Shown here one piece after another: positions 22,913 through 59,014 of a DNA stretch of 64,000 bases. The notes under the pieces are model-generated. The model made no database searches and was not told where the DNA came from. It saw only the letters and a list, made by a program, of their open reading frames with translations. Numbering within the stretch: the first letter of the stretch is position 1; every line of letters begins with the position of its first letter. Source of the stretch: a virus; IMG/VR virus record IMGVR_UViG_3300024324_000009, positions 62,001 to 126,000 of that record; one strand, 5' to 3'. Both the position numbers and the translations under genes were made by a program.

Positions 22913-24529
22913 TTAATTTTTTGGTAAATAAGCCTTTTCTACAATAAGGCTATCACCATCCCTATTTTTCGACCCTTGTATAACAATAACATTGTTTTCA
23001 AACAAAATACTACTATAGGTAGAAAATTGTTCAGGAAAGAACACGATACTGTCTATCGAGCCACTACTATCGCTTCCTTCCACAAAAGCCATCTTTGCTC
23101 CGGGGTTTTTCCCCTTTTTAGTCTTAATAACACCGACATTATCTATCTGTAAAGCGACGACAATCTCGTTGAGTAGACTATTATTAAAGTCCTTACATAT
23201 TGTGTTTGTCATAGATACGTCATACATATCTACTTTAGAACACGTTATCGAACAACCTAAATATTCTTCTTCATTATCGGCTATCCACTCTGGGCTATCT
23301 TCTAGCACATAAGGTGGATTGTCTATAGTATTAATGAAACCTAAGAGTTTTTCTTTTCTCTTACTGCTCATTCTTGGCTTTTCTATGACGCAGTATATGA
23401 TATCTTTTAATGAATCATAATTAAGACACGTACTTAACGCATGTTCTTGTTCTTTGGCTGTAAGATCATTTATAAGACCATATTCAAACATCATCTTGGT
23501 TCTAGTAAGCCCAAAATAATCTAATGCACCTGACTGTATCAAAGCCTTGACCGCTGTTGAACTTAGCCTTGTCATAACTCTAAGTACTGTTTGATGCCAA
23601 TTTAAGTCATTGAGATTAATATTATCTTCTTCTAGTATGGTTCTAAGTTTCTTGTACATAGAACCGCCAAAACCCTTTAGGTCTGTCAGTCCGAAATAAA
23701 TTTTCTTATCATGTAGTACAAAATATTCATTCAGCACACGCAAATCAGGCAGATGTACTGTGATCTCCATTTCGCTGGCGTTTTGTACCAGTTGCTTGAT
23801 CTCTACTTTGGGATCAATCTTGTCTTTAGCAAAACGTAAATATGAAGCAAAGAATACTCTTGGGAAGTGAGCCTTCGCGTATGCGGACAGATATGCGTTC
23901 ATAGCATAGGACACAGCATGACTTTTATTAAAACTGTATCTCTGGCTTTTTTCAATCCATCCGAATATCTCTTCTGCCTGTTCTTTTGTGACTAATTTAA
24001 GTTTTGCAGAACCGGAGATGAACTTCTTTTTTAGTTTCGCCATTTCTTCTGGTTGCTTTTTACCAATGGCTTTTCTCAGGTTGTCTGCTTGTTGCAAGTC
24101 AAACCCTGCTACCTCTTTTGCAATTTGCATAGCTTGTTCTTGGTAAATCATTTCACCATATGTACTCTTTAGTGCATTTTCCAACATGGGATGATAATAG
24201 TCTACAGACTCTTGCCCGTTCTTTCTGTCGATATAATGATTAGTAACATTCTTGCCATCTCTGTATGCCTGTAGACATCCCGGTCGTAGAATACTAATTA
24301 ATGCACTTAATTGTTCAATGTTTTCTGGTTTAAGTTTCTTAGCCACAGATTTTCCAAGCCTAGTCTCCAACTGAAAACATCCTTTAGTATTACCATCAGA
24401 TATTAAATCCCAAGTCTTTTGGCAATTCAAATCCAATTCATGGTTTACAGGATCGAAATCAATAGAAGTCTTACCCTCACTCTCTGTAGCATGAAAACTA
24501 CAACCACAACTAAATTTTAATACTGTCAT
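22913..24529 (-). CDS. dnaE: DNA polymerase III alpha, C-terminal part (separate gene)
   Basis: The 538-residue product corresponds to the part of DnaE after the palm. CFQLETRLGK (51-60) and ALISILRPG (76-84) are conserved thumb/fingers segments. YSFNKSHAVSYAMNAYLSA (198-216) is the highly conserved fingers helix. A helix-hairpin-helix region (FGLTDLKGFG) and an OB-like C-terminus follow. The catalytic aspartates are in the separate gene at 25520-27394. The first ~35 residues (FSCGCSF) have no match in DnaE and may form an interface. The start overlaps the exonuclease stop as ATGA, with AAGGA upstream, so it is a real initiation. Confidence 0.88.
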   Translation of the reverse strand: MTVLKFSCGCSFHATESEGKTSIDFDPVNHELDLNCQKTWDLISDGNTKGCFQLETRLGKSVAKKLKPENIEQLSALISILRPGCLQAYRDGKNVTNHYIDRKNGQESVDYYHPMLENALKSTYGEMIYQEQAMQIAKEVAGFDLQQADNLRKAIGKKQPEEMAKLKKKFISGSAKLKLVTKEQAEEIFGWIEKSQRYSFNKSHAVSYAMNAYLSAYAKAHFPRVFFASYLRFAKDKIDPKVEIKQLVQNASEMEITVHLPDLRVLNEYFVLHDKKIYFGLTDLKGFGGSMYKKLRTILEEDNINLNDLNWHQTVLRVMTRLSSTAVKALIQSGALDYFGLTRTKMMFEYGLINDLTAKEQEHALSTCLNYDSLKDIIYCVIEKPRMSSKRKEKLLGFINTIDNPPYVLEDSPEWIADNEEEYLGCSITCSKVDMYDVSMTNTICKDFNNSLLNEIVVALQIDNVGVIKTKKGKNPGAKMAFVEGSDSSGSIDSIVFFPEQFSTYSSILFENNVIVIQGSKNRDGDSLIVEKAYLPKN

Positions 24530-25494: not shown

Positions 25495-25523
25495 ATTATA
25501 CCCGATAATGAATACACCGTCAA
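25495..25523 (-). promoter_or_regulatory. Sigma70-type promoter inside the polymerase cluster
   Basis: TTGACG (25518-25523) and TATAAT (25495-25500) are 17 bp apart on the minus strand. The site overlaps the last codons of the polymerase N-terminal gene. It would drive the 72-residue gene, the exonuclease and the polymerase C-terminal gene separately from the N-terminal part. Confidence 0.75.
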
Positions 25524-27394
25524 GCACCTTCTTTCATAAGATCGCTAATGCACATAATCTTATCTAGCATAGCAACCCCTAGAATATCTAGCTTGATCAT
25601 TCCAAGACTTTCAAGGTCAGCCATTTCCATGCCAGCAATTACCTGTTTGTTTTTACTGTCATAGACCATCGGACAGATACCGGCAAGAGGCTCTGCACTG
25701 ACTGCTATACCAGCAGCATGTTTTGACTGAACCGATTTGGTTCCTTCCAATCTCATAGCTTGTTCAAATCTTTTTGACAACGGACCTTCTAATTGACCCT
25801 TTTTACCTATATGACACCACTGTTTTAGTTTTTCAGGGTCGTTCTCTAGTGTCCATCTAATAATAGAAGACTCTCCTGTTGCCTCTTTCATTTCTTGTAA
25901 TTCATCTGCCACTTTAGACTCTTCAGGAATATTTCTAGTGATATCATTCATTTCTTCAAATGTGATACCTCCAAACACCCTAAGTACATCTTTTAATGCC
26001 CCTCTACCCTTGATAGTACCAAACGTAATCATCTGTGACACCTTATCGTCTCCGTAAGTATCACGAATATACTGAATGACTTTTTCACGTTTGTCGATAG
26101 GTACGTCAACATCAATATCAGGCATAGAGGTATGTTCTGCTGTATTTCTACCAGCATTATAAAACCTATCAAAGATGAGACCGTACTTTATAGGGTCAAT
26201 GGTTGTAATACCAATTAGGTAAGAAACCAAACACCCTGCTGCACTTCCTCGTCCCGGTCCCGGTAGCCATTTGTTTTCACGTACATGATTCACAATGTCC
26301 TGTACAATCAGAAAGTAACTAGATAGGTCTGCACCCTGCAAAACACTTAATTCATACTTGATTCTATCTACATATTTTCCATGATCTTCTTTAGGTATAT
26401 TATTAGCTATCTTATCTCGCCATCCGTCCCTGCATAGTTGACGCAAATACTCTCCGTCATCTTTGGCTTCTGGACAGGGAAACGGAGGCAGATTTGGCTT
26501 ACTTAATATGTCATACTCTTCACACATGTCAGAAACAACATTAGTGTTTGCTAGTTCTTCTTCTGTGTGCAGGGCATTCATTTCTTCTTGATCTAATATA
26601 TGAAAATTATCAGATTTAAAAAAGGCATCCAAACCAATAGACTCGCCATTGGACATCTTCCTATTTACCTCTGAGAAGGTCGTTTTTAAATTATTGCACA
26701 AAAGCACCCTTTGATCAACTGCGTCTGTCTTACGGCAATAATGAGCGTCTGGAGTTGCTACAATCCTATTGCCTGTAATCTTTGCTAGTTCTCTGATACA
26801 GTCTGTGAGTTTGTCCTGTAGAGGAATATTCTCATGATCCATCAACTGTGCTTCTAAGAAGAAGTTTTCTTTACCAAACATATGGTTTAACTTACTGACT
26901 AGTCTAGTGCCGACATTTTTCCAATTCGGGTCTATGTCGTCTCCCTGCACTAAATACCTAGCCAGCGTTGATCCTAGATGACCACATATTCCTATAATAT
27001 TACCATCAATAAAATTAGATAATGTATCTAGGTCTAATCTAGGCTTTCTGTAAAAATGCTCAGGAAGGTTTGCTTCTGATGTTAGTCTAATTAATTGTTT
27101 CCATCCTTTAAAATTTTTAGCCAGCAGGAGGAAGTGACTCAACTTTGCATTATCTTTGTCTTTGATTTTGCAGTCTTGTTCACAGACATAGATTTCTTGT
27201 CCAAGTATGGGTTTTATTCCTTGTTTTTTCATCTCTGAGTAAAACTTGATCGCACCGGCAATGTTACCGTGGTCTGTTAATGCACAGGATGTCGCACCAA
27301 TTTCAATACATCTCTCTGCCATGTCTGCTGGTTTGCTCATACCGTCAAGTAGGCTATACATACTGTGGCAGTGAATCGGTTGGTAAGTTATCAT
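25520..27394 (-). CDS. dnaE: DNA polymerase III alpha, N-terminal PHP and palm part
   Basis: The 624-residue product holds the PHP domain (HCHSMYSLLDG with H8 and H10; TDHGN at 40-44) and the catalytic palm. GPGRGSAAG (379-387) is the DnaE signature. D426 and D428 in PDIDVD and D603 in IKLDILG match the three catalytic aspartates (E. coli D401, D403, D555). The gene stops 21 residues after D603, where normal DnaE continues. The missing fingers, HhH and OB parts are in 22913-24529. No intein motif is visible at the end. GGAG lies 7 bases before the ATG. Confidence 0.92.
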   Translation of the reverse strand: MITYQPIHCHSMYSLLDGMSKPADMAERCIEIGATSCALTDHGNIAGAIKFYSEMKKQGIKPILGQEIYVCEQDCKIKDKDNAKLSHFLLLAKNFKGWKQLIRLTSEANLPEHFYRKPRLDLDTLSNFIDGNIIGICGHLGSTLARYLVQGDDIDPNWKNVGTRLVSKLNHMFGKENFFLEAQLMDHENIPLQDKLTDCIRELAKITGNRIVATPDAHYCRKTDAVDQRVLLCNNLKTTFSEVNRKMSNGESIGLDAFFKSDNFHILDQEEMNALHTEEELANTNVVSDMCEEYDILSKPNLPPFPCPEAKDDGEYLRQLCRDGWRDKIANNIPKEDHGKYVDRIKYELSVLQGADLSSYFLIVQDIVNHVRENKWLPGPGRGSAAGCLVSYLIGITTIDPIKYGLIFDRFYNAGRNTAEHTSMPDIDVDVPIDKREKVIQYIRDTYGDDKVSQMITFGTIKGRGALKDVLRVFGGITFEEMNDITRNIPEESKVADELQEMKEATGESSIIRWTLENDPEKLKQWCHIGKKGQLEGPLSKRFEQAMRLEGTKSVQSKHAAGIAVSAEPLAGICPMVYDSKNKQVIAGMEMADLESLGMIKLDILGVAMLDKIMCISDLMKEGA

Positions 27395-28722: not shown

Positions 28723-29796
28723 CTATCGAGTTAAAACGCCACCATCCCTTGAAAGCATTAGTTTATCCCATGCAGACAAGGCATCAGGAGCCGTACTGGG
28801 CAGCACCTCAATGTTGTTATTAATAAAATGTGTTGATCCATCAACAAATACCACACCAACTCCACCGGGATGTAGACTTCTAGAAGTTGCTTCATTGTTA
28901 GTTAAATTAAAACAACTCATCCCTTGTGCGTTCATGTCGTAGCTTTGTTGTAAAAGGTTGCAGTTTATTACATTGTCTGCACCTGACGAGGTATTAGCAT
29001 TTGGCCCAGCAGCATCTAGACTCACCCCATCATAAGTTAAGCCGCCATGACCCCATAACGCACTACTGCCAGCACCAGCCATAGCCCAGCAACCTCTAGA
29101 ATCTCGTTCGTCGATACCTGCACGAATTTCTGCTAATAAACAAGTATTAGAAGTTCCATCAGTTATATGTCCGAACTGACTACTCGCTCCATACCCCATG
29201 ACTCCTCTAAGCATAGGGTCGTTCCAGTTCTTGCCATTATTGCCCAGAGCATTAAATGGAGGATGTAAAGTCAAAGAGAACATACCTAGGCCTGCGTTAG
29301 CAGCATAGTTACCTCTAGCCCAGTTATCACCCCATTGTGCAGACCTAGAAGCAGAAGTGCCATTAAATGGCTTCCTATTATATGGGTCACTAGCACAAAG
29401 CATAACACTAAGTTCTGTAGAACGCAACGCCTCATTGCTTGGTGCTGATACAGTAAACCTAGAGTCGCTTTCGTCGTGTAGAGACTTTACTGTGCTTTGC
29501 TCTACATAGTCTAGGATGTCAATTACCCAATTCTTTGTTCTGGTATATGAACCAATGCCATCTGGTGGCAAGTTAGGATCGTTTGATGAAATCTTATGAC
29601 TAGCATACGGAAATCTACGATGTGCAGACTCGTAATTGTGACACGCTAGCCCTAACTGTTTCATATTGCTGGCACAAGACATACGTCTTGCAGCCTCTCT
29701 TGCGGATTGCACAGCAGGCAACAACAAGCCAACAAGCACACCGATGATGGCAATAACAACAAGTAGTTCGATTAAAGTAAATGCTTTCTTATTCAT
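28723..29796 (-). CDS. DUF1559-type pseudopilin (planctomycete signature)
   Basis: The first residues, MNKKAFTLIELLVVIAI, form a class III (type IV pilin-like) signal. Prepilin peptidase would cut before F6, with Ala at -1, and the hydrophobic helix runs to ~residue 28. The sequence after it (AREAARRMSCASNMKQLGLA) and the C-terminal HPGGVGVVFVDGS, an H-x9-DG motif, are hallmarks of DUF1559, a family found in great number in Planctomycetes. The protein would be anchored in the inner membrane or built into a pseudopilus. It starts as ATGA on the kinase stop with GGAG upstream, so it belongs to the replication operon. Its presence in a phage is unusual. Confidence 0.92.
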   Translation of the reverse strand: MNKKAFTLIELLVVIAIIGVLVGLLLPAVQSAREAARRMSCASNMKQLGLACHNYESAHRRFPYASHKISSNDPNLPPDGIGSYTRTKNWVIDILDYVEQSTVKSLHDESDSRFTVSAPSNEALRSTELSVMLCASDPYNRKPFNGTSASRSAQWGDNWARGNYAANAGLGMFSLTLHPPFNALGNNGKNWNDPMLRGVMGYGASSQFGHITDGTSNTCLLAEIRAGIDERDSRGCWAMAGAGSSALWGHGGLTYDGVSLDAAGPNANTSSGADNVINCNLLQQSYDMNAQGMSCFNLTNNEATSRSLHPGGVGVVFVDGSTHFINNNIEVLPSTAPDALSAWDKLMLSRDGGVLTR

Positions 29797-47288: not shown

Positions 47289-48950
47289 TTAAGGCTCAGG
47301 AAAAGGTGGTAAATCAGGGCTATAATAACCTGAAATTACAGACCCCGGGTTGCCTTCACCGGGAAGTTCACCGTACCATTCATCTACCTCTATAATACAG
47401 TCAGTGACAACGATAGTATCATAAGCATATACCTTGTTGATTTTACCGTTTGCTCTTAGAAATGTCCCATCAGCTTTTTCATACAGTGTTCCTATTCGGA
47501 AAGCATCCTGATCTCTGATATCACAGTTGCCGATAAAGGTGCCAAAATTTACCGTATTATTACTGAAAAGTTCACACTTACCACGAAAAGTTCCTATGTT
47601 AATACTGGAGAATATAGTATATAATGTGTTATCTAAATATAAATTTAAAGAATCAGCCTTAATATTGGAGTACCTAGCGGTAATAGTGCCTCCCACAATA
47701 AGATCATTATTAGCGTTTTCTACATTTAAAGTTGAGCTCACTAAGTTACATCCATTATAAATCAGGCCTCCTAGGCCTCCTACAGTAATTGTACTGTCGT
47801 GACATTCTATGTTTTGACAAACAAGTTCACCACAAGACAATGCTGATATTTCGTTCATAACGATGTCATCATCCACATAAATAGTTTGAGGTGCGGAGAC
47901 TTTGGTATCATACAATTCAAGACTTGGGAAAACTAGATATCCTGCACCTCCTGCTGGTAGATCATAAGCCTTTATGTTGCTGTGGCTATACACGCAGTTT
48001 GTACTCATGCTGTCGTAATCAAACACTGGCTCCTGTAGATCAGGCCTTTTTACGGGTGGTGCAGACAACTTGGGCCGGTCCTGAGTACCGACCTTGTCAT
48101 AGGAAACTAAATCCATTTTATAAACTTCAAGGTCTTGAAATGTAAGCCTGTACGCTAGCGGTTGTACAAAGTATGCGTGATACCATTGTTCTTCAGCAGT
48201 CAAGGTGTTATTAATAAATCTAATTTTTTGGTTCATTACTGTTTGCTCTACAGGAATACCATCTTCTCTATTTGGTATTTTACTTCTGTCTTGACCATCA
48301 ATTATTAAATAGCATCCATAGTTTCGTGATTCCATAGGGTTTTCAAAGCTAGCAAAAAAAGCGGCATCCTCTTCTTCTACTGGAGGTGGAGAATCCAAGT
48401 TGATTGCAAAAAAGTTCATATTATTACAAAGTATAGTCCCTCCATTCACCCAAGAACATATATATGCTTCTCCTTTAGGTAGACCATAAAAACTTATTTC
48501 GCATTCATCTAGGATGTTAGTGTAAGATATGTTGTTATTTATGGCGTTCACAGCGTCCCAATATTCATAAGACTTGCTGTCTTCATAGTCTGATGCAGGT
48601 TCCCACTCACTACTTGTCTGTACTTCTCCTAAAGTCTCTGGGTCTGAAATACCAAACAACGTACTTGCTTGTGCCTCTGTTCTTAATTCTTTAGGAGTGT
48701 CTGATTCTTCTCCGTTTTCATCTTCTTCATAAACACATGATGGTACTGGAAACAACTTTTCCATAAAAGTTACACATGCTTGACTATTAGAAAGCCTATA
48801 TTTGTCTGTAAACGTAACAGACCCTCCTTGTATAAAACACCTATTTAAGTCTACAAGATCAAACTCTGATTTTACAGGAAGTGAGAAAGTGCAGTCCTGA
48901 TCTACCAAGTCTGTAACTGTGGTAAAATTTTCTACTTCAAATCTATCCAT
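47289..48950 (-). CDS. Probable beta-helix virion/fibre protein
   Basis: The start is the ATG at 48950, which overlaps the upstream stop as TAATG; a longer frame from 48959 has less support. The ~553-residue protein has a C-terminal half with short repeated strand-turn units (NIGTFRGKC, NFGTFIGNC, RIGTLYEK), typical of right-handed beta-helix tail spikes. The N-terminal half is acidic, with Pro-rich stretches. No active site is evident. It is coupled to the papain-fold paralogue and probably belongs to the virion. Confidence 0.6.
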   Translation of the reverse strand: MDRFEVENFTTVTDLVDQDCTFSLPVKSEFDLVDLNRCFIQGGSVTFTDKYRLSNSQACVTFMEKLFPVPSCVYEEDENGEESDTPKELRTEAQASTLFGISDPETLGEVQTSSEWEPASDYEDSKSYEYWDAVNAINNNISYTNILDECEISFYGLPKGEAYICSWVNGGTILCNNMNFFAINLDSPPPVEEEDAAFFASFENPMESRNYGCYLIIDGQDRSKIPNREDGIPVEQTVMNQKIRFINNTLTAEEQWYHAYFVQPLAYRLTFQDLEVYKMDLVSYDKVGTQDRPKLSAPPVKRPDLQEPVFDYDSMSTNCVYSHSNIKAYDLPAGGAGYLVFPSLELYDTKVSAPQTIYVDDDIVMNEISALSCGELVCQNIECHDSTITVGGLGGLIYNGCNLVSSTLNVENANNDLIVGGTITARYSNIKADSLNLYLDNTLYTIFSSINIGTFRGKCELFSNNTVNFGTFIGNCDIRDQDAFRIGTLYEKADGTFLRANGKINKVYAYDTIVVTDCIIEVDEWYGELPGEGNPGSVISGYYSPDLPPFPEP

Positions 48951-51049
48951 TAAAAACACCCTTTTCCTTCTAAGTGAATTATGTGATATCCCGGTGGTTT
49001 TGCCACATTAACTTTAAGATAACCTAGATATGGTTCCCATTGTATATTTATGGTCGCGTTGTTCTCCGAGTCCAGACAGTTTATTGGTATGGCAGATGTC
49101 TCTATGTCTTGATGTGCCGTTGCATGTTTATGTGCTCTTTTCTTAAATGCTCTGTCCTTGTACATATTACCTTCAAGACGATCTAGTTCTCCTTCATTAT
49201 TAAAGGCTTTACCCCAACCCCATATAAATTCTAAATCTAAAGGTAGATAGCAGTCTCCTTCAAAGTCCTCGGCCTCACATTCATCGTCTCGTTCATGAGA
49301 AGGTATTTTGCAATAAGCCTTACTCTCTGAAAGCAAATCTGCTGTAACATGAGTAGGGATATTTTGAGAATAGTGCAACAAATCATCTCCCTTGTTACTT
49401 TGGGTGAAACGAGGATTAAGAGAGAGAGCAAATAACATACCGAAAGCACTTTGTCTTTCAGCACAAAAGTAAGGTAGACAGTTGGGATAAATAGGAACTC
49501 CTTGACATCCCTCATACTCTAGTATAACAAAAGGATCAGTACAGTCTATTCCTTCGTTGGCTGGGCAAACAGTTTGCCTACAGGCATAATAGTCGCTACC
49601 ATTCATGTATCTAATCATGTCTTTCAAAACGGTTTCGGTAACTAAAAACGAACCGTCTGGTAATGGCCCCCAGTTTGGTTCACCTCCAGTAATCCAATTT
49701 CCTAATGGACATTGTAGAACATACACACATTCGTCAAACTCTAGTCTTCTATCGTCATAGCCTATAATGCTATACATGGTATACCATATTCTATCTGGAT
49801 ATGCTAAACCTTGACTATCTCTTCTATTGGGAAAACCTACGTTAGTAAACAAAGCTACGCCTTCTCCGTTCCAGAGTAGTTGCTTTATTGTTCTAAGATA
49901 TGCTTCGTAGTCACTGGATGAACTTGGCATTCCTGCTTTGCCGTTTACGCTTACATCTAGCATAAGAGGTACTGTAGCCCTTATTCTTTCTATCTTTTCT
50001 TCTTGTTTTAAGTTGGGACTATCAGGATCAGTAGTCTTTGGCTTCATTGTTTGATAGTTCCAGCCGTTGCGTTCCTGTAGCCATTCAAAGAATAGGCCTT
50101 TATCAATAGTGTTTAATCTATCTGCTTGATTGTTTCTGAGGTTGCATATACCTGAATATTCTCTTCTTTCTAAAACTCCTATGTGATACATTTTTTCATC
50201 TTGTCTACCTGATAATAAGTCTCCTCTCTGCGAACCGTCTTGAGAAGGAACCCAGTATGCGAACTGTATATATCTACCCTCAAATGTAGCAGTTCTATCA
50301 AACCCACAACACTCACTATAGTATTCTGGAGTTCCGGGTTTACAGCAAGGGTCATTTTCAGGAGGTGGGTCTATTGGTGGGCAGCAGCCACACGATCTAC
50401 ACTTTGGCTGGTCTTCACCAGCACATGTTACGCATGAATGTGCGGCTCCCGGCACACCTTGGGCTCCGGGCCAACAACTCATTACTCCTACTGTAGGAGA
50501 CCTTACTTCAAGTACGTCTTGTGGTTCTAGAGTTTGTCCTACTTCTTCTGCTGATATTAAATCTGGCCCCATCATCAACATATTGTCTGGTATGCTGTTC
50601 CATCCCCAGTATGTCATGTATTCAGTAGCCATTCTGTGAAAACTTTTTGAGAAATTGTTATCTCCTACATAGTGACAAGCCCTCATAGTGTCCGCAGAGT
50701 TCCTGAAAGCATGTGCTACTGCGGCTTGTGGGATTGAGCAACATTCTTTATAAGCCCCGCCATCTAATTGTTCTAAAAATTTAAATGGCAATACTAATTG
50801 GTATTCATGGTCATTATTAGTTGCACTGTATAGTGTAGAATCTGCTGCGGCACTAAAGCAAGGATATTTTAAAATAGATACTGCATCAACAATTCTAGCT
50901 AGCCAGTAAGCAGCAGAAACTCCCTGTGGATAAGTACCGAATACTTCAGAGTTGCTGTTGTCTGCAAAGTAATCAATTTTTCTAGGCGATGTTGGGCTAG
51001 GATCACAAGGGTTTCTTGTAAGTGCCTCATATAGTTCATCTGGAGTCAT
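48950..51049 (-). CDS. Papain-fold pseudoprotease, large Cys-rich paralogue
   Basis: The 699-residue protein starts MTPDELYEAL, like LTPDDLYRLY of the papain-like protein at 53887-54813. It shares two more blocks with it: AVAHAFRNSAD (111-120) against VSHSTRNAVD, and GFPNRRDSQG...WGPLPDGSFL (405-469) against GFSNKRDSKG...WGPIPDGSFL. The catalytic Cys, His and Asn are replaced by A110, T424 and C447. A Cys-rich insert (about 185-300) lies between the blocks. It cannot act as a cysteine protease and is probably a structural or binding protein, perhaps in the virion. Confidence 0.78.
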   Translation of the reverse strand: MTPDELYEALTRNPCDPSPTSPRKIDYFADNSNSEVFGTYPQGVSAAYWLARIVDAVSILKYPCFSAAADSTLYSATNNDHEYQLVLPFKFLEQLDGGAYKECCSIPQAAVAHAFRNSADTMRACHYVGDNNFSKSFHRMATEYMTYWGWNSIPDNMLMMGPDLISAEEVGQTLEPQDVLEVRSPTVGVMSCWPGAQGVPGAAHSCVTCAGEDQPKCRSCGCCPPIDPPPENDPCCKPGTPEYYSECCGFDRTATFEGRYIQFAYWVPSQDGSQRGDLLSGRQDEKMYHIGVLERREYSGICNLRNNQADRLNTIDKGLFFEWLQERNGWNYQTMKPKTTDPDSPNLKQEEKIERIRATVPLMLDVSVNGKAGMPSSSSDYEAYLRTIKQLLWNGEGVALFTNVGFPNRRDSQGLAYPDRIWYTMYSIIGYDDRRLEFDECVYVLQCPLGNWITGGEPNWGPLPDGSFLVTETVLKDMIRYMNGSDYYACRQTVCPANEGIDCTDPFVILEYEGCQGVPIYPNCLPYFCAERQSAFGMLFALSLNPRFTQSNKGDDLLHYSQNIPTHVTADLLSESKAYCKIPSHERDDECEAEDFEGDCYLPLDLEFIWGWGKAFNNEGELDRLEGNMYKDRAFKKRAHKHATAHQDIETSAIPINCLDSENNATINIQWEPYLGYLKVNVAKPPGYHIIHLEGKGCF

Positions 51050-51962
51050 TCGTAACCTTTGTTATTGTGTTCTCAGAAGTCTTTTTGTATATCTCTTTTT
51101 TTCTAGGTCTTTTATGTTTCCATATGATAGCCAACTGATCCAAATTTTCTTCTACTATATTGCCACAGATTGAACTGTCGCTATGACAATAAACTTCATT
51201 ATTTTTAGTAACCACTATTTGTTTAGGAGAATTAATTCCGTTCACGGTAATAGTAGACATAGTTATAGGATATAGGTTTCCTAAATAGCCAAAAATTCTT
51301 TCTAAAGCATGAATATAAGTTGCTACACAAAGACCATGAACATCCTGATCTTTGACTGTTCGACCAAGCTCTTTATTATCTATCATAAGCCCTTCTATAT
51401 AATCTACAACCTCTTTATTAAAATATTTTAAATATGTTTCAGAACAGCCTGCAAACATAGTGCCTCCAACAAAATGACTATAATTATCGAAAGGTATGCC
51501 TAGTTCATCCATGAGGAAGTGTATATAGGGTTTGTGGCATCTATCGTGGTTCATCAGCATGGAAAGAGGGCCTATACTATCTATAAAAGGATTATCCAAC
51601 AATAGACAGTTTTGTCTTAGTATTTTTGGACTACCTAATAGTTCATATACTAATATTTCTTTCCAGTGGCAGAATCTATGGAGTAGGCTTTTTTTACTAT
51701 GTATTTTAAAGAAATACTTATAATGCGATGCATATTTTACTAGACTTCTTAGAAAGGGCAATATGTCTCCACCGACATTATCTACGTAATCAATCTGAGG
51801 ATTCAAGTCACTTAACATGGTTACTGTAACATCACAGTCTACTGAATCAGGCAGTGTGATATATATATCTACCATGTCTTTAATAGGGAAGAGGTAGTCG
51901 TAAAAATATTTTGCTTGATCTTGATGATACAGATGTAAAAATACTGCTGTTTTATTTCTCAT
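51036..51962 (-). CDS. RgpF-like rhamnan-synthesis protein
   Basis: The 308-residue protein has the RgpF-family pattern: FLHLYHQDQ, VDIYITLP, NVGGDILPFL, YFFKIHSKKS and WKEILVYELLGSP. RgpF proteins take part in rhamnose-glucose polysaccharide assembly. It lies 3.7 kb from the second island, between two virion-type genes, so it may glycosylate a virion protein. Both neighbours overlap it by 10-14 bases. Confidence 0.75.
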   Translation of the reverse strand: MRNKTAVFLHLYHQDQAKYFYDYLFPIKDMVDIYITLPDSVDCDVTVTMLSDLNPQIDYVDNVGGDILPFLRSLVKYASHYKYFFKIHSKKSLLHRFCHWKEILVYELLGSPKILRQNCLLLDNPFIDSIGPLSMLMNHDRCHKPYIHFLMDELGIPFDNYSHFVGGTMFAGCSETYLKYFNKEVVDYIEGLMIDNKELGRTVKDQDVHGLCVATYIHALERIFGYLGNLYPITMSTITVNGINSPKQIVVTKNNEVYCHSDSSICGNIVEENLDQLAIIWKHKRPRKKEIYKKTSENTITKVTNDSR

Positions 51963-52200
51963 TTAATTTATTATACAGTACTAACGCTAGTACACTACCT
52001 GCTACACCAGCAAAAATACCTGCTGGTTCTATGACAGAATATGATCCTAGCATATATAATCCTGCTCCTCCCATATATGATCCTATGACTCCTAAAGCTA
52101 CAGTTTTAATAAATCCAAAGTTTTCTTCGCCGGGAACTATAGTTTTAGCTATTGATCCTACAAAAATACCGTATACCGCCCATATAAATAAACTAAACAT
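51952..52200 (-). CDS. GlsB/YeaQ-type small membrane protein
   Basis: The start is the ATG at 52200, with GGAGG 6 bases before. The ~82-residue product has three membrane segments and the glycine pattern IFVGSIAKTIVPGEE...GVIGSYMGGAGLY. This matches the GlsB/YeaQ/YmgE (transglycosylase-associated) family. Its place among other small membrane proteins suggests a role in the envelope or lysis, but this is inferred. Confidence 0.7.
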   Translation of the reverse strand: MFSLFIWAVYGIFVGSIAKTIVPGEENFGFIKTVALGVIGSYMGGAGLYMLGSYSVIEPAGIFAGVAGSVLALVLYNKLNEK

Positions 52201-52576
52201 TTGAGGCCTCCAGTAAAGCAATAAGGTCTTCCTCTTTCATAGTTGCTGCTTCATCCAATATAGCATTAACTAGAGAAGCTGAATTTTTTTTATAATCTTC
52301 AGGCTTGAGTTCTCTCCTTAGTACTCGTTTAATTTTCATCTTTGTAAACCAGCCTCGTCTCACACTAAAGTTTCTGACACGATTGGCATAAAACATTTTA
52401 TCTTTATCTTTATTGCACTCTTGTATAATTCTAATAAGAGTAAGCATCACGCTAATAACCATGATTACAGCTATTACGCTACCATGTTCATCAGACTCTA
52501 CATTATCATCGGATTGATAGTTCGCCTTTTCTAAAACACGGGCAGCGATTTCTTTAAGTTTTTCTTGATTTTCCAT
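52193..52576 (-). CDS. Small membrane protein with coiled ends
   Basis: The start is the ATG at 52576 (frame MENQEKLKEIAA); the frame is open further upstream but that part overlaps the preceding gene. The ~127-residue product has one membrane segment near residues 36-52 (VIAVIMVISVMLTLIRII) and basic helical regions. It is coupled to the GlsB-type gene by an 8-base overlap. Function unknown. Confidence 0.6.
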   Translation of the reverse strand: MENQEKLKEIAARVLEKANYQSDDNVESDEHGSVIAVIMVISVMLTLIRIIQECNKDKDKMFYANRVRNFSVRRGWFTKMKIKRVLRRELKPEDYKKNSASLVNAILDEAATMKEEDLIALLEASNV

Positions 52577-52595
52577 TATGTTCTCTATACTGGGT

Positions 52596-52829
52596 TTAAG
52601 GTTCACAATACTGACAGTTAATTTTTGCAATTCCATCACCGCTCCAGTACCAGCCTTTGCCCTCACAAACGGGACAATCTTTTCTTTTGTATTTTTCAGC
52701 TATCTCTATTGATTGAGAAGCCTTTATAACGGCACCTACTAATGTAGTAACCGCAGTTGTGCTGTATTTGGGTAGTGTAGATACTGCAACCATAGAAGCA
52801 AGTACACCGCATAAAATAACTCTACTCAT
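52596..52829 (-). CDS. Small membrane protein with zinc-finger-like tail
   Basis: The 77-residue product has a hydrophobic N-terminus (VILCGVLASMVAVS), which may be a signal or membrane segment, and a C-terminal CPVCEGKGW...CQYC motif like the DnaJ-type CxxCxGxG finger. AGGA precedes the ATG. Its role is unknown; in a run of membrane genes it may be an envelope or lysis factor. Confidence 0.6.
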   Translation of the reverse strand: MSRVILCGVLASMVAVSTLPKYSTTAVTTLVGAVIKASQSIEIAEKYKRKDCPVCEGKGWYWSGDGIAKINCQYCEP

Positions 52830-52918
52830 TTGTTCATCCTATCTTTCTTGTTAAATAAAATAACGCCACTCCCTGAACTTTGTATCAGTTTTGATAATGT
52901 CGGGAGGTATGATCCACC

Positions 52919-52946
52919 TTAATATAAGGACAAAATTATTTGTGAA
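52919..52946 (-). promoter_or_regulatory. Possible promoter with overlapping dyad in the 52830-52964 gap
   Basis: In the longest non-coding stretch of the region (52830-52964), TTCACA (52941-52946) and TATTAA (52919-52924) are 16 bp apart on the minus strand. The -10 overlaps a 13-bp dyad (52917-52929, CCTTA/TAAGG arms), possibly an operator. A GG.GG/CC.CC inverted repeat follows near 52902-52918. Nothing else is recognised in the gap. Confidence 0.35.
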
Positions 52947-52964
52947 CCAGACTGTTTAGTGACG

Positions 52965-53126
52965 TTATTCTTTCTTAAAAATATTTTTTAGTTTGTCTAT
53001 AATTGGTCTTTTTTTCTCAGGTTTTGTTATGTCGTCATTAGGCTGAAACATTTTTAGCAAAGCCAATATAAAGTCGCCAATAATTTTAATTAATCTATTC
53101 ATAGCAATTTTATCTATGATACTCAT
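52965..53126 (-). CDS. Small unknown protein (53 aa)
   Basis: The frame starts on the stop of the upstream gene as TAATG and encodes MSIIDKIAMNRLIKII..., an amphipathic/hydrophobic first half (about residues 14-26) and a lysine-rich end. The stop-start coupling favours a real gene. It may be a small membrane-associated protein of this block. Function unknown. Confidence 0.55.
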   Translation of the reverse strand: MSIIDKIAMNRLIKIIGDFILALLKMFQPNDDITKPEKKRPIIDKLKNIFKKE

Positions 53127-53875
53127 TAGGTCACCTTTGTATAAGTTACGGAACTTCCTGTTAAAAGAGCAATGCTGTCATTTCCAACAAAATTATGATT
53201 TGTAACTATCTCTAGTTGTAGAGTTAAGTCTCCACCAGAATCATTCTTTACATAGAACTGTTGTTGTGAAGTGACTGTGCATGGTACATTAAATATAGAA
53301 GACGGATTATTTCCAAAACTAACCCAAGTACCAGTATTTGCAATTTGCTGAGTAGCGTCCTGATGGAGTTCTAGGTGCTCTTTTGATATTGCTTCATAAT
53401 GCACCCAGTTTCCTCTTGTAATAAATTGGTCACTATCAAGTCCTCCACTTATAGCAGATTGTTGAGTACTAGTCAAACCGTTTCCTATATTAAAAACAAA
53501 ATGAGTGCTTACCATATACTGAGTACCATCAGCAATGGTTTGTGCTAATTCTAGTGGCGTAATAATGGTATTCTGTGCAAGAGAGTAGTTTTGTGTGGCT
53601 ACCTTGATAGGAAATATGTCTTGACCAATGGTGTCCGTAGCAGCAGATATAGTTACTGTCTCAGGACTGTCTGCATCTGGTGCAGCATTTGTTGTCAAAG
53701 TTACACCGTCTCCTTGTACCAGTAAGTCACTTGGTTTGACTGACTGTGCAACAAAACGATTGACATCAACCTTCATAGTTTCTGGTACATCACTAACTCC
53801 TGTTACTACACAGAGCAAGTCATCTGTAGCTATAGTAGGTGCTTCAGGCAATTCTGTAATCTTAGCGTCTGCCAT
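53126..53875 (-). CDS. Tail-fibre-type virion protein
   Basis: The 249-residue protein opens with AKITELPEAPTIATDDLLCVV, the sort of N-terminal attachment segment common in phage tail fibres. The rest is rich in Thr, Ser, Asn and Gln with beta-like segments (DSGGDLTLQLEIVTN). No enzyme motif. It lies between the papain-like protease and the small membrane genes. Confidence 0.65.
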   Translation of the reverse strand: MADAKITELPEAPTIATDDLLCVVTGVSDVPETMKVDVNRFVAQSVKPSDLLVQGDGVTLTTNAAPDADSPETVTISAATDTIGQDIFPIKVATQNYSLAQNTIITPLELAQTIADGTQYMVSTHFVFNIGNGLTSTQQSAISGGLDSDQFITRGNWVHYEAISKEHLELHQDATQQIANTGTWVSFGNNPSSIFNVPCTVTSQQQFYVKNDSGGDLTLQLEIVTNHNFVGNDSIALLTGSSVTYTKVT

Positions 53876-53886
53876 AATTTATCCCT

Positions 53887-54813
53887 TTATAGATATGTGT
53901 CAAAACCGTAATCTGGTAATTCTTGTGGTGGAAAGCCGTTAAAGGAACTGAAAGCATAAGCACCATTACCTCTAAGCATTCCTGCTGCAATGTCAGCATG
54001 TATCAGGAATGAACCGTCTGGTATCGGACCCCATTCAGGATGACCTCCGCTGTTAAATTTCCCCCAACTATTTTGTACAAGAAATGCTGGCTCGTTACCT
54101 GTGTCGTCACAAGCCGTCCATGCCATTGCGTGATTCCAGCCTCCACTTTTTCGGGCGAACCCCTTGCTATCTCTTTTGTTAGAAAATCCATAGCCACTAC
54201 ACACACTTAAACCATACCCATTGGCTAGTGCATCTCTTGCCTCTTCTACAGTTTTAACAAGTGAGACTGTTTTAATTTTGTGTTTTTCTGCTTCGTCAAT
54301 TACTTTATCTGGAAGGCCTCTGCTTCCCCATCTTGCTCCCATGCTTCCATTGTATTTACTAAAGTCAGCAACACCGGGATAGTTTTTACGAACAAGAACA
54401 CCACCGCTTTGACTGACAAATGTTGCAGCACGACTACAACTCATACCTTGTCCACCATGACCTCTGCATCCATATATTGCTTCCGTCGCTCCTCTAGCAA
54501 CCCAGCTTTCGGGTTCTCCTTCTACATGCATTTCAACTGCTCTGGTTACATCAACAGCATTCCTAGTAGAATGTGAGACACAATCTCCAGTGGTTTGCCT
54601 TTCGATATAGCAGTTCTTATCAAAACTTAGAGCAGAACGAAACGGAGTAGATAACTTCCCTTTCCCACTATTCTTAATTTTTTTTGCACCATCTTTAAAA
54701 TATGCATACTTAGAACTTTCTATGAGTTCTTCAAACACATGATTCTCCCAAAGTGTTCCGGGCATACCTTCACGATACAATCTATAAAGATCATCAGGGG
54801 TTAACCTTGGCAT
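53887..54813 (-). CDS. Papain-like (C1A) cysteine peptidase
   Basis: The 308-residue protein has a complete papain triad: C78 in TGDCVSHS, H228 in GGWNHAMAW and N248 in VQNSWGK; Q73 may serve the oxyanion hole. The C-terminal WGPIPDGSF is also typical. Residues 1-60 (LTPDDLYRLY...) form an unusual N-terminus shared with the pseudoprotease at 48950-51049. No signal peptide is seen. It might cleave virion proteins, or the host S-layer or cell wall proteins at entry or lysis; neither can be chosen from sequence. It begins as TAATG with AAGGGAG upstream. Confidence 0.88.
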   Translation of the reverse strand: MPRLTPDDLYRLYREGMPGTLWENHVFEELIESSKYAYFKDGAKKIKNSGKGKLSTPFRSALSFDKNCYIERQTTGDCVSHSTRNAVDVTRAVEMHVEGEPESWVARGATEAIYGCRGHGGQGMSCSRAATFVSQSGGVLVRKNYPGVADFSKYNGSMGARWGSRGLPDKVIDEAEKHKIKTVSLVKTVEEARDALANGYGLSVCSGYGFSNKRDSKGFARKSGGWNHAMAWTACDDTGNEPAFLVQNSWGKFNSGGHPEWGPIPDGSFLIHADIAAGMLRGNGAYAFSSFNGFPPQELPDYGFDTYL

Positions 54814-55316
54814 TACTTGCTCCCTTCATAAAAAGCCCATGACAATGCATTAAAGGCTTCGACACTTTTGGCTCTGAGGTCATCATCCAGTACTACTTCA
54901 TCTTTGCCTATGCTTGACGCAACAAGATCACCGGCAGCTTCTGCAAGACCATCGTACTTGCCTTCAATATCAAGTTTAAGCATTTTGCCTGCAAGGACAT
55001 TAGCCTCTCTGATACTAGCAGTATCTTTAATGACTCCTTCTTTACCGTCTAAGCTAATAAGAACTCCCATGTCTTTGTATAAAGAAGAAAGTTTGAGACA
55101 GTCTTCTCTTTTACCAGAAGCATTTGACTCACGCAACAAATCTACAATAACAGTACCTTTTTCAAGAAGCACTTCATCTTCTGGTGCGTCAACTGTTGGT
55201 ACAGTAACTACTATATCCGGTCTTCCTATGCTAGGAATTAGACTACCAAGATCAGGCTGAAAGAGTCCGAACAAAATTAATATGGCTCCTATTGCTAGTG
55301 CAACTTTTTCTTTCAT
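54813..55316 (-). CDS. Small membrane-anchored protein
   Basis: The 167-residue product has one N-terminal membrane segment (residues 5-22, VALAIGAILILFGLFQP) and a soluble, acidic helical domain that would face the periplasm. AGGAG precedes the ATG. It is coupled to the papain-like protease. Possibly a lysis or envelope factor. Confidence 0.6.
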   Translation of the reverse strand: MKEKVALAIGAILILFGLFQPDLGSLIPSIGRPDIVVTVPTVDAPEDEVLLEKGTVIVDLLRESNASGKREDCLKLSSLYKDMGVLISLDGKEGVIKDTASIREANVLAGKMLKLDIEGKYDGLAEAAGDLVASSIGKDEVVLDDDLRAKSVEAFNALSWAFYEGSK

Positions 55317-55754: not shown

Positions 55755-56189
55755 TTATTTAACGTATGATACTTCTAGTGTTTCGGGACTGTATGGGTTT
55801 GAGTCTACTTTATTTTTTAGGAAGACTCCGATTTCTCTGAATGTAGTTACAATGGCATCAATGCCAGCACTGGCAAGACCCATTACAAACTTTTTGACGT
55901 AAGAATGAAATAATGGTTCAAACACGTTAGGAATAAAAGGCAGATCGACAGCCTTGAAAACACTATCATAAAATCCTGATAGTAGATTCATAGCCAGTTC
56001 TTTCTTTTCTGTACTAGACAAGTCTGTTCCTATTTTTTCGATTAACATTACTAACTCACCGATAACAACCTGCATGACTTTCCATGCTTCTTTAATTGCT
56101 AATCTTTTTACTTCTCCGAGGCTTGCGAGTACGTCCTCTTTTACCTTGTCGAACTCTACGCCTATCTGATCTTTCGTTGCTTCGCTCAT
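55755..56189 (-). CDS. Unknown helical protein
   Basis: The 144-residue product is mainly helical with hydrophobic faces (MQVVIGELVMLIEKIG). AAAGGAAG precedes the ATG. Its first 98 bases overlap the last 32 codons of the holin-like gene in another frame. Function unknown; the setting suggests a lysis or membrane role. Confidence 0.5.
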   Translation of the reverse strand: MSEATKDQIGVEFDKVKEDVLASLGEVKRLAIKEAWKVMQVVIGELVMLIEKIGTDLSSTEKKELAMNLLSGFYDSVFKAVDLPFIPNVFEPLFHSYVKKFVMGLASAGIDAIVTTFREIGVFLKNKVDSNPYSPETLEVSYVK

Positions 56190-56478
56190 TGGTATCTTCC
56201 TTTATGGGTTGTTGTTCAGGTTCTGGTTCTGGTTCATTCAATGGTTCTGGAGGTGTAGGCTCCGCTACAGGCTCAGGTTTTCTAGTCTTTAAATATCTTG
56301 ATAAAATTCCAAATTGTCCGGCTATAAGTATAATAGATTCAACTGCGTGGGTGACAACACTGGTTAGTTCGTCTTTCTGATCAATGTCTCCTATAATCCC
56401 TGCTAGGAAAAGTCCGCTAAAAATGAAACTGACTAATGTGAACCAAAATTCACTTGTTTTATATCCGGGTTTTTGCAT
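56092..56478 (-). CDS. Holin-like membrane protein
   Basis: The 128-residue product begins KPGYKTSEFWFTLVSFIFSG and has two membrane segments (about 11-28 and 44-60). Phage proteins starting with this Y-K-T-S/T-E-F-W pattern are often annotated as holins or lysis-linked. The tail is a Pro-Glu repeat followed by a very basic end (RRRVRQGKRGRTRKPRRSKK). GGTGA lies before the ATG. The holin call rests on topology and this start pattern. Confidence 0.55.
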   Translation of the reverse strand: MQKPGYKTSEFWFTLVSFIFSGLFLAGIIGDIDQKDELTSVVTHAVESIILIAGQFGILSRYLKTRKPEPVAEPTPPEPLNEPEPEPEQQPIKEDTNERSNERSDRRRVRQGKRGRTRKPRRSKKISN

Positions 56479-56546: not shown

Positions 56547-57362
56547 TTAGTATGTTTCTAGCCTTTTGTGGTTTGTGGGGCTGGCTACTTGATACAAAGT
56601 GCTGTTTTTATTGTACATTACCTGTCTAGCAACACTACTGTTCCAACTGGTACTGATATCCCAGTTTGTGTCTTTATAAAGTGTTGGTCTCACATTCCAT
56701 ATATATGAAGTCAAAGTTTGAGAACCTGATCCATGATTAGCATACATTTGAAAAGCAAATCCTCCCCAGTATAAATCATTGTTTTTTACATAATTAGCGT
56801 CTGATGCTTTTATCTGATAGCATGTCCAGTAGTTTGTGCTTTGACTGCTTCCAGCGGTTCCTATAGTAAGACCAAAAACCTTTTGATTGGCTTCTATCCT
56901 GTAAGTTCTTCCACTAGCATTTGCATAAAGCAAAATACACCTCTGAGGATAAGATGATTTGCTTGCACTGTGAGCACCACTAGAAGAATAATTCCAGCAT
57001 AAACCATTAACATTAGAAGGCCAACAACCGTCAGACGATGTACCAGTACTTGTACTACTTAGCATATTAAAACTATATGTGCAAGCAACAATGTATGTAC
57101 TGCTATATTTTCCTGACCTGCCAGAATACAGCCCATTGCCTCTGCTGTTGGCGTAAGGATTTCCACTGAAGCCGATATCATCACCTGCTCTACCATCAGT
57201 AGTAATGTTATTGCCATTTCTTATGCTGTAACTGGCGTTTTTAGGAGCACTATGAAGTGTAGTGTCACTGTATGCGATATTATCATGACCTAAGTTAGCC
57301 AAATCAGTTGTTTGTGAACTGCCAGCATAGTTAGGTGGGATAGTTATTAATTTCTTTGCCAT
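56547..57362 (-). CDS. Ser/Asn/Tyr-rich tail or adhesin protein
   Basis: The 271-residue protein is unusually rich in Ser, Asn, Tyr, Gly and Trp, with many short strands. Such composition is common in phage receptor-binding tips. It is coupled to the Mtd-N-type fibre (TAATG). No enzyme motif was seen. Confidence 0.6.
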   Translation of the reverse strand: MAKKLITIPPNYAGSSQTTDLANLGHDNIAYSDTTLHSAPKNASYSIRNGNNITTDGRAGDDIGFSGNPYANSRGNGLYSGRSGKYSSTYIVACTYSFNMLSSTSTGTSSDGCWPSNVNGLCWNYSSSGAHSASKSSYPQRCILLYANASGRTYRIEANQKVFGLTIGTAGSSQSTNYWTCYQIKASDANYVKNNDLYWGGFAFQMYANHGSGSQTLTSYIWNVRPTLYKDTNWDISTSWNSSVARQVMYNKNSTLYQVASPTNHKRLETY

Positions 57363-59014
57363 TATGGAACCCAGTATAAGGTGCTGCCACTTTTGTAAAA
57401 ACTGCCAGAAGTACTACTTGTACTACTTTTAACTACTTGATCACCCGGACTGAAACTTGAACCAGCCGATGGAGTTTTCCATGCAGGTGCTCCCGTTGTT
57501 CCATTGCTTGTTAAAACTTGTCCAGAGGAGCCGCTCGATCCACTAATTTGAAGGCGACCCGTCATATTCATTGATACGCTATTCGTAAATTTTGTTGTAC
57601 TACTAAATGTCTTTTCGCCAGCAACAGTCTCGTCCCCGGTAAGGCCAACGTAATTAGTTGAGGCATTTGCATTTATAAGAGATATCACAGAAACTTTGGT
57701 TTGTATAGATGAACTATCGTCTGTTCTACCTAAGTATTGGATAAAACTATTATTGTTTGAACCACCGTTGTAATGATAGTCTTTAAAAATAATCTGATTT
57801 TCACCATCCGCAGTCTTACCCCTAAGTATAAATGAGTTAAAGTTGTTTGAACGCTGGGTACGGTCCACTGTAGTATTAAAATAACCTGCGTCTTTAATAT
57901 TATATCCACGACAATCTATCTCAGGAATTACATCAACACCATTATAATCTGTACCTTGATACAGTTTAAACTGAGAGTTCATCTGAACAACGGTATTACC
58001 CCATTTCATCCTAACGCCATTGGAGGTATCATTTGTGCCGTATGCTAGTGTTCCATTTGCACCGAACTCAGCAGTAATTCTACGATCACCGTTTATAATA
58101 ATATGATCTTGAAATGTATTCTTTGCAGTAAATGTATTAGCACTACCCCTTAAAGCACAGAGATCAAACAGTTGATCTACATACGCTATATCTGCTTTAT
58201 CACTAACGTCTACATCAGGAAAAACAAGACAGTCATATACGTCTCCGTCGTCTACTGTACCATTGCTTATAGCACTTTGCATAGTTACATCTAACTTCAC
58301 CCCACTGGCTAATTGATTGACTGTTTCTATCTGAAATCTGACAGAAACATCCTCATCGTTTTCTTCTCTAAAATTAAATGTGTCACCAGAGGCAAGAGAA
58401 ACAAAGTTGTGTAATAGTCCGTTTTTATCTACAAAACTAAGAAAGATTTCGTTGATTGTTACAGGGTTGTTTGTAACAGTACCATTAAAACCTACATAAC
58501 ATGCAGAAGGTGCAGGTGCATCACCATATACTTCACTGCCTTGAGGCGATCTAATAATATATTCAATATCAAAAGTTGATCTAGCCTCTAAGCCTGATAC
58601 TTTAATATCTAGTATCTCAATGTCTTCTTCAACCTCATCCATTCTGTCGTCTAGGTCGGCAATACCTGTCGCATTAGCATCTACACGACCATCTAGAGTA
58701 GTAAGGTCTGACTGTAGTGCAAGTCCTGTGGCAGATATTTCATAGACTCTTTCGCCAGAGAAATAAGTCATCTCTATACCAAAGCCCGGATCGAGAAACT
58801 CATCAAGTTTAGCAATTAAAGAATCGTCTGGATAAATAGCATTTGCATAGGGTAGTGCGTCCCAAACTAAAGCACCATCGCCTATTTTAAAAGTGTTATA
58901 AGTAGTATCTAAACCGAGTTCACCGGAATACAAAACGGGATTCTCTAAAGACCAGTTGGCTTCTGTGTCTCTACGTAGTTGCATTTTATAATATTTTGTT
59001 GAGTCGAGGCCCAT
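57362..59014 (-). CDS. Tail fibre with Mtd-type N-terminal domain
   Basis: The 550-residue protein starts with YKMQLRRDTEANWSLENPVL and LYSGELGLD, TFKIGDGALVWDAL, the N-terminal domain shared by phage tail fibres and tropism determinants (Mtd_N). A heptad stretch (LDGRVDANATGIADLDDRMD) at about 105-135 suggests a trimeric coiled coil. The C-terminus has a Ser/Gly-rich region (QISGSSGSSGQVLTSNGTTG) like the repeat tips of fibres. GGAG lies before the ATG. It probably attaches to the virion and binds the host. Confidence 0.8.
   Translation of the reverse strand: MGLDSTKYYKMQLRRDTEANWSLENPVLYSGELGLDTTYNTFKIGDGALVWDALPYANAIYPDDSLIAKLDEFLDPGFGIEMTYFSGERVYEISATGLALQSDLTTLDGRVDANATGIADLDDRMDEVEEDIEILDIKVSGLEARSTFDIEYIIRSPQGSEVYGDAPAPSACYVGFNGTVTNNPVTINEIFLSFVDKNGLLHNFVSLASGDTFNFREENDEDVSVRFQIETVNQLASGVKLDVTMQSAISNGTVDDGDVYDCLVFPDVDVSDKADIAYVDQLFDLCALRGSANTFTAKNTFQDHIIINGDRRITAEFGANGTLAYGTNDTSNGVRMKWGNTVVQMNSQFKLYQGTDYNGVDVIPEIDCRGYNIKDAGYFNTTVDRTQRSNNFNSFILRGKTADGENQIIFKDYHYNGGSNNNSFIQYLGRTDDSSSIQTKVSVISLINANASTNYVGLTGDETVAGEKTFSSTTKFTNSVSMNMTGRLQISGSSGSSGQVLTSNGTTGAPAWKTPSAGSSFSPGDQVVKSSTSSTSGSFYKSGSTLYWVP

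Follow-up and report, generated by a model that had tools for sequence, protein, structure and literature searches.

A papain-like protease with a pseudoprotease paralogue in large phages of probable planctomycete hosts

Introduction

It has been debated for decades whether protein or peptidoglycan is the foundation of the planctomycete wall. Phages must solve this wall problem in order to leave their hosts, and a phage group that lacks the common endolysin families and carries a conserved papain-like protease is therefore a direct test of the matter. The locus considered here poses the question in a particular form: why should a large virus keep two genes of papain descent, one with a full catalytic triad and a longer one without it? 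The locus belongs to an uncultivated virus record of 171,040 bases, part of which, a stretch of 64,000 nucleotides referred to throughout as the window, was analysed. The sequence-only reading of the window had taken the two proteins for an active protease and a triad-less relative, and had proposed that a duplication was followed by loss of catalysis and reuse of the fold in a structural or receptor-binding protein. A papain-like protease with a pseudoprotease paralogue is a known kind of pair; what is unusual here is its setting. Elsewhere in the window, DNA polymerase III alpha is apparently split between positions 22913-24529 (PHP and NTPase part) and 25520-27394 (finger and HHH part).

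The paralogous pair

Both open reading frames lie on the minus strand where they had been placed, encode 308 and 699 residues and stand 2.8 kb apart (Table 1). The N-terminal motif TPDxLY is present in each, as TPDDLY in the small protein and TPDELY in the large one, and the gap-free block at the His position is longer in BLASTP alignments than the 29 residues originally counted. The two sequences match by BLASTP with an E-value of 9e-16, their profiles align in hhalign with a probability of 100 (E 9.4e-48, 283 columns), and a profile built from small proteins alone scores the large protein at 79.6 bits. Judged by these comparisons, the proteins are true paralogues, with homology beyond chance.

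The small protein carries the reported triad of C78, H228 and N248, together with Gln73, and all four residues are invariant across 60 distinct small-protein sequences. An AlphaFold2 model (pTM 0.71, pLDDT 68) bears out the expected cathepsin-like fold: the best 50 PDB matches listed by Foldseek are all papain-family proteases, with a best E-value of 2.6e-5 and moderate TM-scores of about 0.33-0.54. The Pfam family PF00112 reaches only 14 bits, under its cut-off of 20.7, and the protein is therefore filed as papain-like, outside the curated family. Strong constraint is evident from dN/dS values of 0.017-0.064 in two pairs of small genes. Furthermore, the active site has received intein-like insertions, with intein or homing-endonuclease signatures, in two relatives, one immediately after His228 (L092:6707-8725; PF14890) and another inside the NSWG motif (L090:4995-6941; LAGLIDADG). 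Inteins favour essential enzymes, and we count these insertions towards the small protein being an active enzyme. Its residues and predicted fold thus describe an apparently active papain-like protease, whose activity and substrate are read from sequence and gene context.

In the large protein, alignments place Ala (A109 or A110), Thr (T424) and Cys (C447) at the positions of the catalytic Cys, His and Asn, as had been observed. A one-residue insertion near the nucleophile site is put before it by MAFFT and after it by hhalign, leaving the register ambiguous; because A109 and A110 are both Ala, loss of the nucleophile in the window copy is independent of that choice. The Cys-rich insertion is smaller than the 300 or so residues first estimated: since the distance from the Cys to the His site is about 314 residues in the large protein and 150 in the small one, the net gain is about 164, and the remaining additional length comes from a C-terminal extension of about 200 residues. 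The protein contains 30 Cys (4.3%), of which 11 are invariant in 16 aligned relatives, and its copies range from 515 to 750 residues with very large lineage-specific insertions. A second intact active site elsewhere in the protein was considered and rejected, as the small protein matches it at a single place and Pfam returns nothing, so that no second papain unit was found.

Structure prediction was less telling for the large protein than for the small. Its AlphaFold2 model has a pTM of 0.75, with low confidence for residues 574-699, and the first five PDB matches in Foldseek are cathepsin L and bleomycin hydrolase at non-significant E-values of 0.08-0.55, such that the resemblance to cathepsins is weak and it is mainly the sequence profile alignment that points to a papain core. 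No family in Pfam or PHROGs was matched, the best E-value against PDB sequences was 9.1, and a BFVD fold search gave no significant match; known fibre or receptor-binding families and folds were likewise missing from the Pfam, PHROGs and BFVD results.

Table 1. Positions within the window of the two paralogues, their catalytic or equivalent sites, and neighbouring genes
Feature	Position	Strand	Basis or remark
Small protein, papain-like (C1A-type) cysteine protease, 308 aa	53887..54813	-	ORF, invariant residues, predicted fold
Gln73 of small protein	54595-54597	-	oxyanion Gln
Cys78 of small protein	54580-54582	-	catalytic Cys
His228 of small protein	54130-54132	-	catalytic His
Asn248 of small protein	54070-54072	-	catalytic Asn
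Large protein, paralogue without catalytic residues, with Cys-rich insertion and C-terminal extension, 699 aa	48950..51049	-	homology, tree, dN/dS
A109/A110 of large protein (nucleophile site)	50720-50725	-	alignments
T424 of large protein (His site)	49778-49780	-	alignments
C447 of large protein (Asn site)	49709-49711	-	alignments
556-aa protein downstream of large gene, 10-base overlap	47289..48959	-	counterpart of the long, mostly repeat-rich (beta-solenoid-like) neighbours elsewhere
308-aa RgpF-type (rhamnan synthesis F) protein	51036..51962	-	PF05045, 4.4e-13; cluster 21
89-aa membrane protein, Transgly_assoc (GlsB/YeaQ-like)	51952..52221	-	PF04226, 25.6 bits against a cut-off of 25.3
157-aa conserved protein, one transmembrane segment	52193..52666	-	
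77-aa conserved protein, N-terminal membrane segment, CxxC...CxxC motif	52596..52829	-	
249-aa fibre-like protein between the paralogues, N-terminal MADxKITELPxA-type motif	53126..53875	-	cluster 7
167-aa protein, one N-terminal transmembrane segment, start/stop overlap with small gene	54813..55316	-	conserved neighbour
137-aa conserved cassette member, one predicted transmembrane segment	55326..55739	-	holin-like by architecture only; no Pfam family
144-aa conserved cassette protein, no clear transmembrane segment	55755..56189	-	
128-aa protein, two predicted transmembrane segments and a charged tail	56092..56478	-	holin-like by architecture only

An ancient duplication and the loss of catalysis

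Over 200 relatives of the small protein (219 confirmed) are present in IMG/VR, 80 of which were fetched. The large protein is represented by 23 distinct copies across the loci retrieved, all from uncultivated phages. Neither protein was matched in 50,697 annotated phage records, and the family is therefore invisible to sequence-based annotation. In a tree of 22 large, 18 small and 15 planctomycete-type sequences, the large copies form one clade (support 100) that is sister to the small clade (99), and the two are joined at 100 apart from the planctomycete homologues. On this topology the duplication is ancient, single and common to many phages; a recent event private to the window genome was rejected, as the split predates the diversification of the phage small proteins in the tree.

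There is good support for the proposed sequence of events, a duplication and then the loss of catalysis: the large clade is monophyletic and not one of its 23 copies has a complete triad. The nucleophilic Cys is clearly missing from 22; the remaining copy (L005) has a Cys that can be placed at the site in one register, and lacks both His and Asn. Both of these residues are kept in 15 copies, Asn alone is lost in three and both are gone in five, with all such losses confined to the branch to which the window belongs. The order of loss was nucleophile first, then Asn once, and then His several times. The pair thereby presents an ordered series of pseudoenzyme evolution, in which the dead form has been retained in many lineages.

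Survival of His and Asn in so many copies gives some room to an enzyme that persists with another nucleophile, such as Ser in copies with SGT or SGS or in those of L066 and L067, and performs cleavage or transfer. In most of the 15 copies in question the nucleophile site or a residue adjoining it is Ser, and serine variants of the papain fold do exist (SERA5, silicatein). The helix register, however, puts Gly at the nucleophile position in most copies, the residue at the site varies (S, A, G, H or C) and the window copy reads Ala, Thr and Cys, making continued catalysis highly improbable.

Neither is the large gene a pseudogene, a reading rejected on its open frames in relatives and on dN/dS values well below 1: six pairs of large genes give 0.10-0.36, with 0.18 for the window copy against that of L002, indicating purifying selection. 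One TAA does fall within an extended profile match in record G703, and a locus of the same record (L124) has an open frame of 527 residues. Homologous to a protease with an intact triad, devoid of its nucleophile and under purifying selection, the large protein has the marks of a pseudoprotease.

The search for the pair in related phages, which the sequence-only reading had suggested, was informative about its arrangement. In 20 of the 23 large loci a small gene precedes the large one on the same strand, at a distance of about 1.1-9 kb and with several genes between; the other three run out of upstream sequence. In the opposite direction, the association is looser: among the 58 small loci whose downstream sequence extends for 9.5 kb or more, six have the large gene, and it is missing from seven of 14 related large records in which the small gene is present. 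Such patchy occurrence fits an accessory surface protein.

Tandem papain-like paralogues of which one is active and one has lost its nucleophile have a precedent in the malaria parasite, where SERA5 is a dead paralogue involved in egress (PMC5500368, PMC4671257) and SERA6 an active egress protease (PMC8167364). By analogy, the large protein could be a regulatory pseudoprotease that binds the protease or its substrates or partners and controls when, or how far, the envelope is broken down. The consistent order of the genes on one strand and the conserved papain core of the large protein would suit such a regulator. It is a live rival, but nevertheless unlikely, given that half of the related large records manage with the small gene alone, that the large gene is tied to a long downstream gene and not to the small one, from which it is separated by kilobases and several genes, and that its insertions are so large and lineage-specific.

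Gene neighbourhood

The gene that follows the large one encodes a long, mostly repeat-rich protein of 359-1328 residues in 19 of the 22 loci examined, with a gap of -101 to +17 nt between them. In the largest cluster of these neighbours a periodicity of 15-16 residues with echoes near 32 suggests a beta-solenoid-like structure; homology among the three clusters is marginal, and the 556-residue neighbour in the window has only weak periodicity. The members represented by L118:4780-7689 and its relatives, encoded directly behind the large gene, are 900-1330 residues long, with 15-16-residue repeats and a conserved N-terminal WCD...W motif. In the window's branch, the gene directly upstream of the large one is of RgpF type. 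The recurrence of a long, mostly repeat-rich neighbour suits a surface or fibre role for the large protein.

Adjacent and often overlapping genes could also be expected of a chaperone or attachment factor and its client, with the large protein serving the long protein encoded directly behind it. Phage fibre chaperones are usually small, in contrast to a protein of this size, and three loci (L066, L067 and L098) keep the large gene without the long neighbour; a chaperone is accordingly very unlikely, and a surface or fibre component remains the preferred reading of the large protein.

Around the small gene, the genes for small membrane proteins are conserved and the fibre-like genes are variable. 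Several planctomycete loci likewise have a counterpart of the 167-residue protein ahead of the papain gene. None of the cassette's membrane proteins matched a holin or spanin family. The 249-residue fibre-like protein between the paralogues belongs to no Pfam or PHROG family, and has relatives of up to 2064 residues in other loci.

The probable host

The host of the phage is probably a planctomycete, because the window contains a DUF1559 gene and because homologues of the small protein occur in planctomycete genomes, matches in Bacteroidota being weak. The DUF1559 protein (PF07596; positions 28723-29796) has a prokaryotic N-methylation motif and belongs to a family apparently restricted to Planctomycetes (PMC10632474), with 26-87 copies in three planctomycete MAGs and none in 14 control genomes. 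A second phage DUF1559 was seen in virus record G005 (L008). Homologues of the small type scoring at least 56 bits were found in 13 of 392 planctomycete genomes, and the best score in Bacteroidota, excluding one probably misbinned contig, was a weak and generic 28.8 bits. That contig (L101), binned in a Flavobacteriales MAG, encodes a small protein with 79% identity. A Flavobacteriales host was considered on this account and rejected, as the MAG has no DUF1559 and other genomes of the phylum match weakly, pointing to a misbinned viral contig.

Chromosomal homologues and the question of lysis

Several of the homologues on planctomycete chromosomes have an N-terminal membrane anchor. In two genomes (G350, locus L178, and G132, L179) genes for a membrane protein, the papain-like protein, a thioredoxin-like protein, terminase and portal stand together, and in a third (G344, L180) this order is shared as far as the terminase; this syntenic element would be a prophage remnant or a gene-transfer-agent-like element. 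Such an arrangement recalls a lysis region with packaging genes behind it, the papain-like gene occupying the position expected of an endolysin. The papain-like gene on a Pirellulaceae MAG contig has a gene for a subtilisin-type protease (L102:6445-7398; PF00082, 3.3e-48) just upstream.

Seven common peptidoglycan hydrolase families (PF00959, PF01510, PF01464, PF01551, PF00877, PF05257 and PF08291) went unmatched in 14 related virus records, each 159-231 kb long (G000, G005-G011 and G698-G703), which may be incomplete, and absence of these seven does not amount to absence of any peptidoglycan hydrolase. The planctomycete wall has been characterised as proteinaceous (PMC2754498), and in one planctomycete species the majority of genes for peptidoglycan synthesis are reported to be non-essential (PMC10632474); according to later work cited in the latter paper, planctomycetes do possess peptidoglycan. 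A search of the literature returned no planctomycete phages with papain-like lysis proteins. Because of the membrane-gene setting, the absence of the seven endolysin families and the anchored homologues beside terminases, the small protein may serve as a protease in lysis or at the envelope. From the gene order, the missing families and the reports of a proteinaceous wall, we infer that it cuts envelope proteins, most likely for release.

A protease in or acting on the tail, serving virion maturation or entry, with the large protein as a structural partner in the same fibre module, would account for the fibre-like genes that flank the small gene (the 249-residue one and another at 57362-59014 with Mtd_N; clusters 7, 27 and 34). 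Yet it is the membrane proteins among the neighbours that are conserved and the fibre genes that vary, and the chromosomal homologues, with their membrane anchors, membrane- or lipoprotein-like partner and nearby terminase, are arranged as lambda-like lysis genes are. A virion or entry protease is for these reasons rather unlikely, and an envelope protease acting at release is preferred.

Discussion

Homology, triad conservation, loss of catalytic residues, a single duplication, purifying selection and gene order were all computed from the sequences. The explanation that best accommodates them, an active small protease of lysis or the envelope and a dead large binding protein at the surface or in a fibre, is tentative as a whole, and we give it a probability of roughly 0.42. 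Large phages, probably of planctomycetes, would carry two papain-fold genes from one ancient duplication. The small protein would be an active C1A-type protease that acts late, as infection ends, together with the adjacent membrane proteins. Most likely it would cut proteins of the envelope or cell wall such that the host opens, and so stand where other phages have an endolysin that cuts peptidoglycan. The large protein would have lost its nucleophile early, with Asn and His following later in the window's branch, and would have acquired a C-terminal extension as well as a Cys-rich insertion with probable disulphide bonds. Paired with its long, mostly beta-solenoid-like neighbour, it would have been retained for binding or for a structural task without catalysis, probably as part of the surface or of a fibre with a hold on the proteinaceous host envelope.

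Of the original interpretation, then, duplication and lost catalysis stand, and the structural or receptor-binding role is plausible, in view of the long neighbouring gene, the patchy occurrence and the Cys-rich composition. A bolder proposition would be that this group of planctomycete phages opens hosts whose load-bearing envelope is protein by means of a papain-like protease in place of an endolysin, with the dead copy, turned surface protein, gripping the very envelope proteins that it could formerly have cut; we consider it unlikely.

Comparison with known systems

With the C1A proteases (papain and cathepsins B, L and S), the small protein shares the order Gln-Cys-His-Asn, the NSWG motif around the Asn and the predicted fold. 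The spacing from Gln to Cys is 6 in papain and 5 in the small protein, which further differs in falling under the Pfam cut-off, in its short N-terminus without a signal peptide and in being encoded by a phage. Among PDB sequences, the one that the small-family profile matches best is Cwp84 (4d59 and 4ci7; E 0.002), likewise of C1A fold, an S-layer-processing cysteine protease that cleaves SlpA (PMC4414356, PMC4089489). The match is weak and limited to residues 174-276, and Cwp84, unlike the phage protein, is host-encoded and has a lectin-like domain.

The Plasmodium pair SERA5 and SERA6 resembles the phage pair in that papain-like paralogues are clustered, one being active in egress and the other a pseudoprotease whose nucleophile has been exchanged. 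The likeness does not imply that the two pairs share ancestry. The site is Ser in SERA5 and Ala or Gly in the phage protein, and SERA5 is processed by SUB1. Finally, the small gene resembles those of canonical phage endolysins in its genomic position, beside genes for small membrane proteins, with its planctomycete homologues next to terminase genes; it departs from them in its predicted activity, which is proteolysis and not the cleavage of peptidoglycan.
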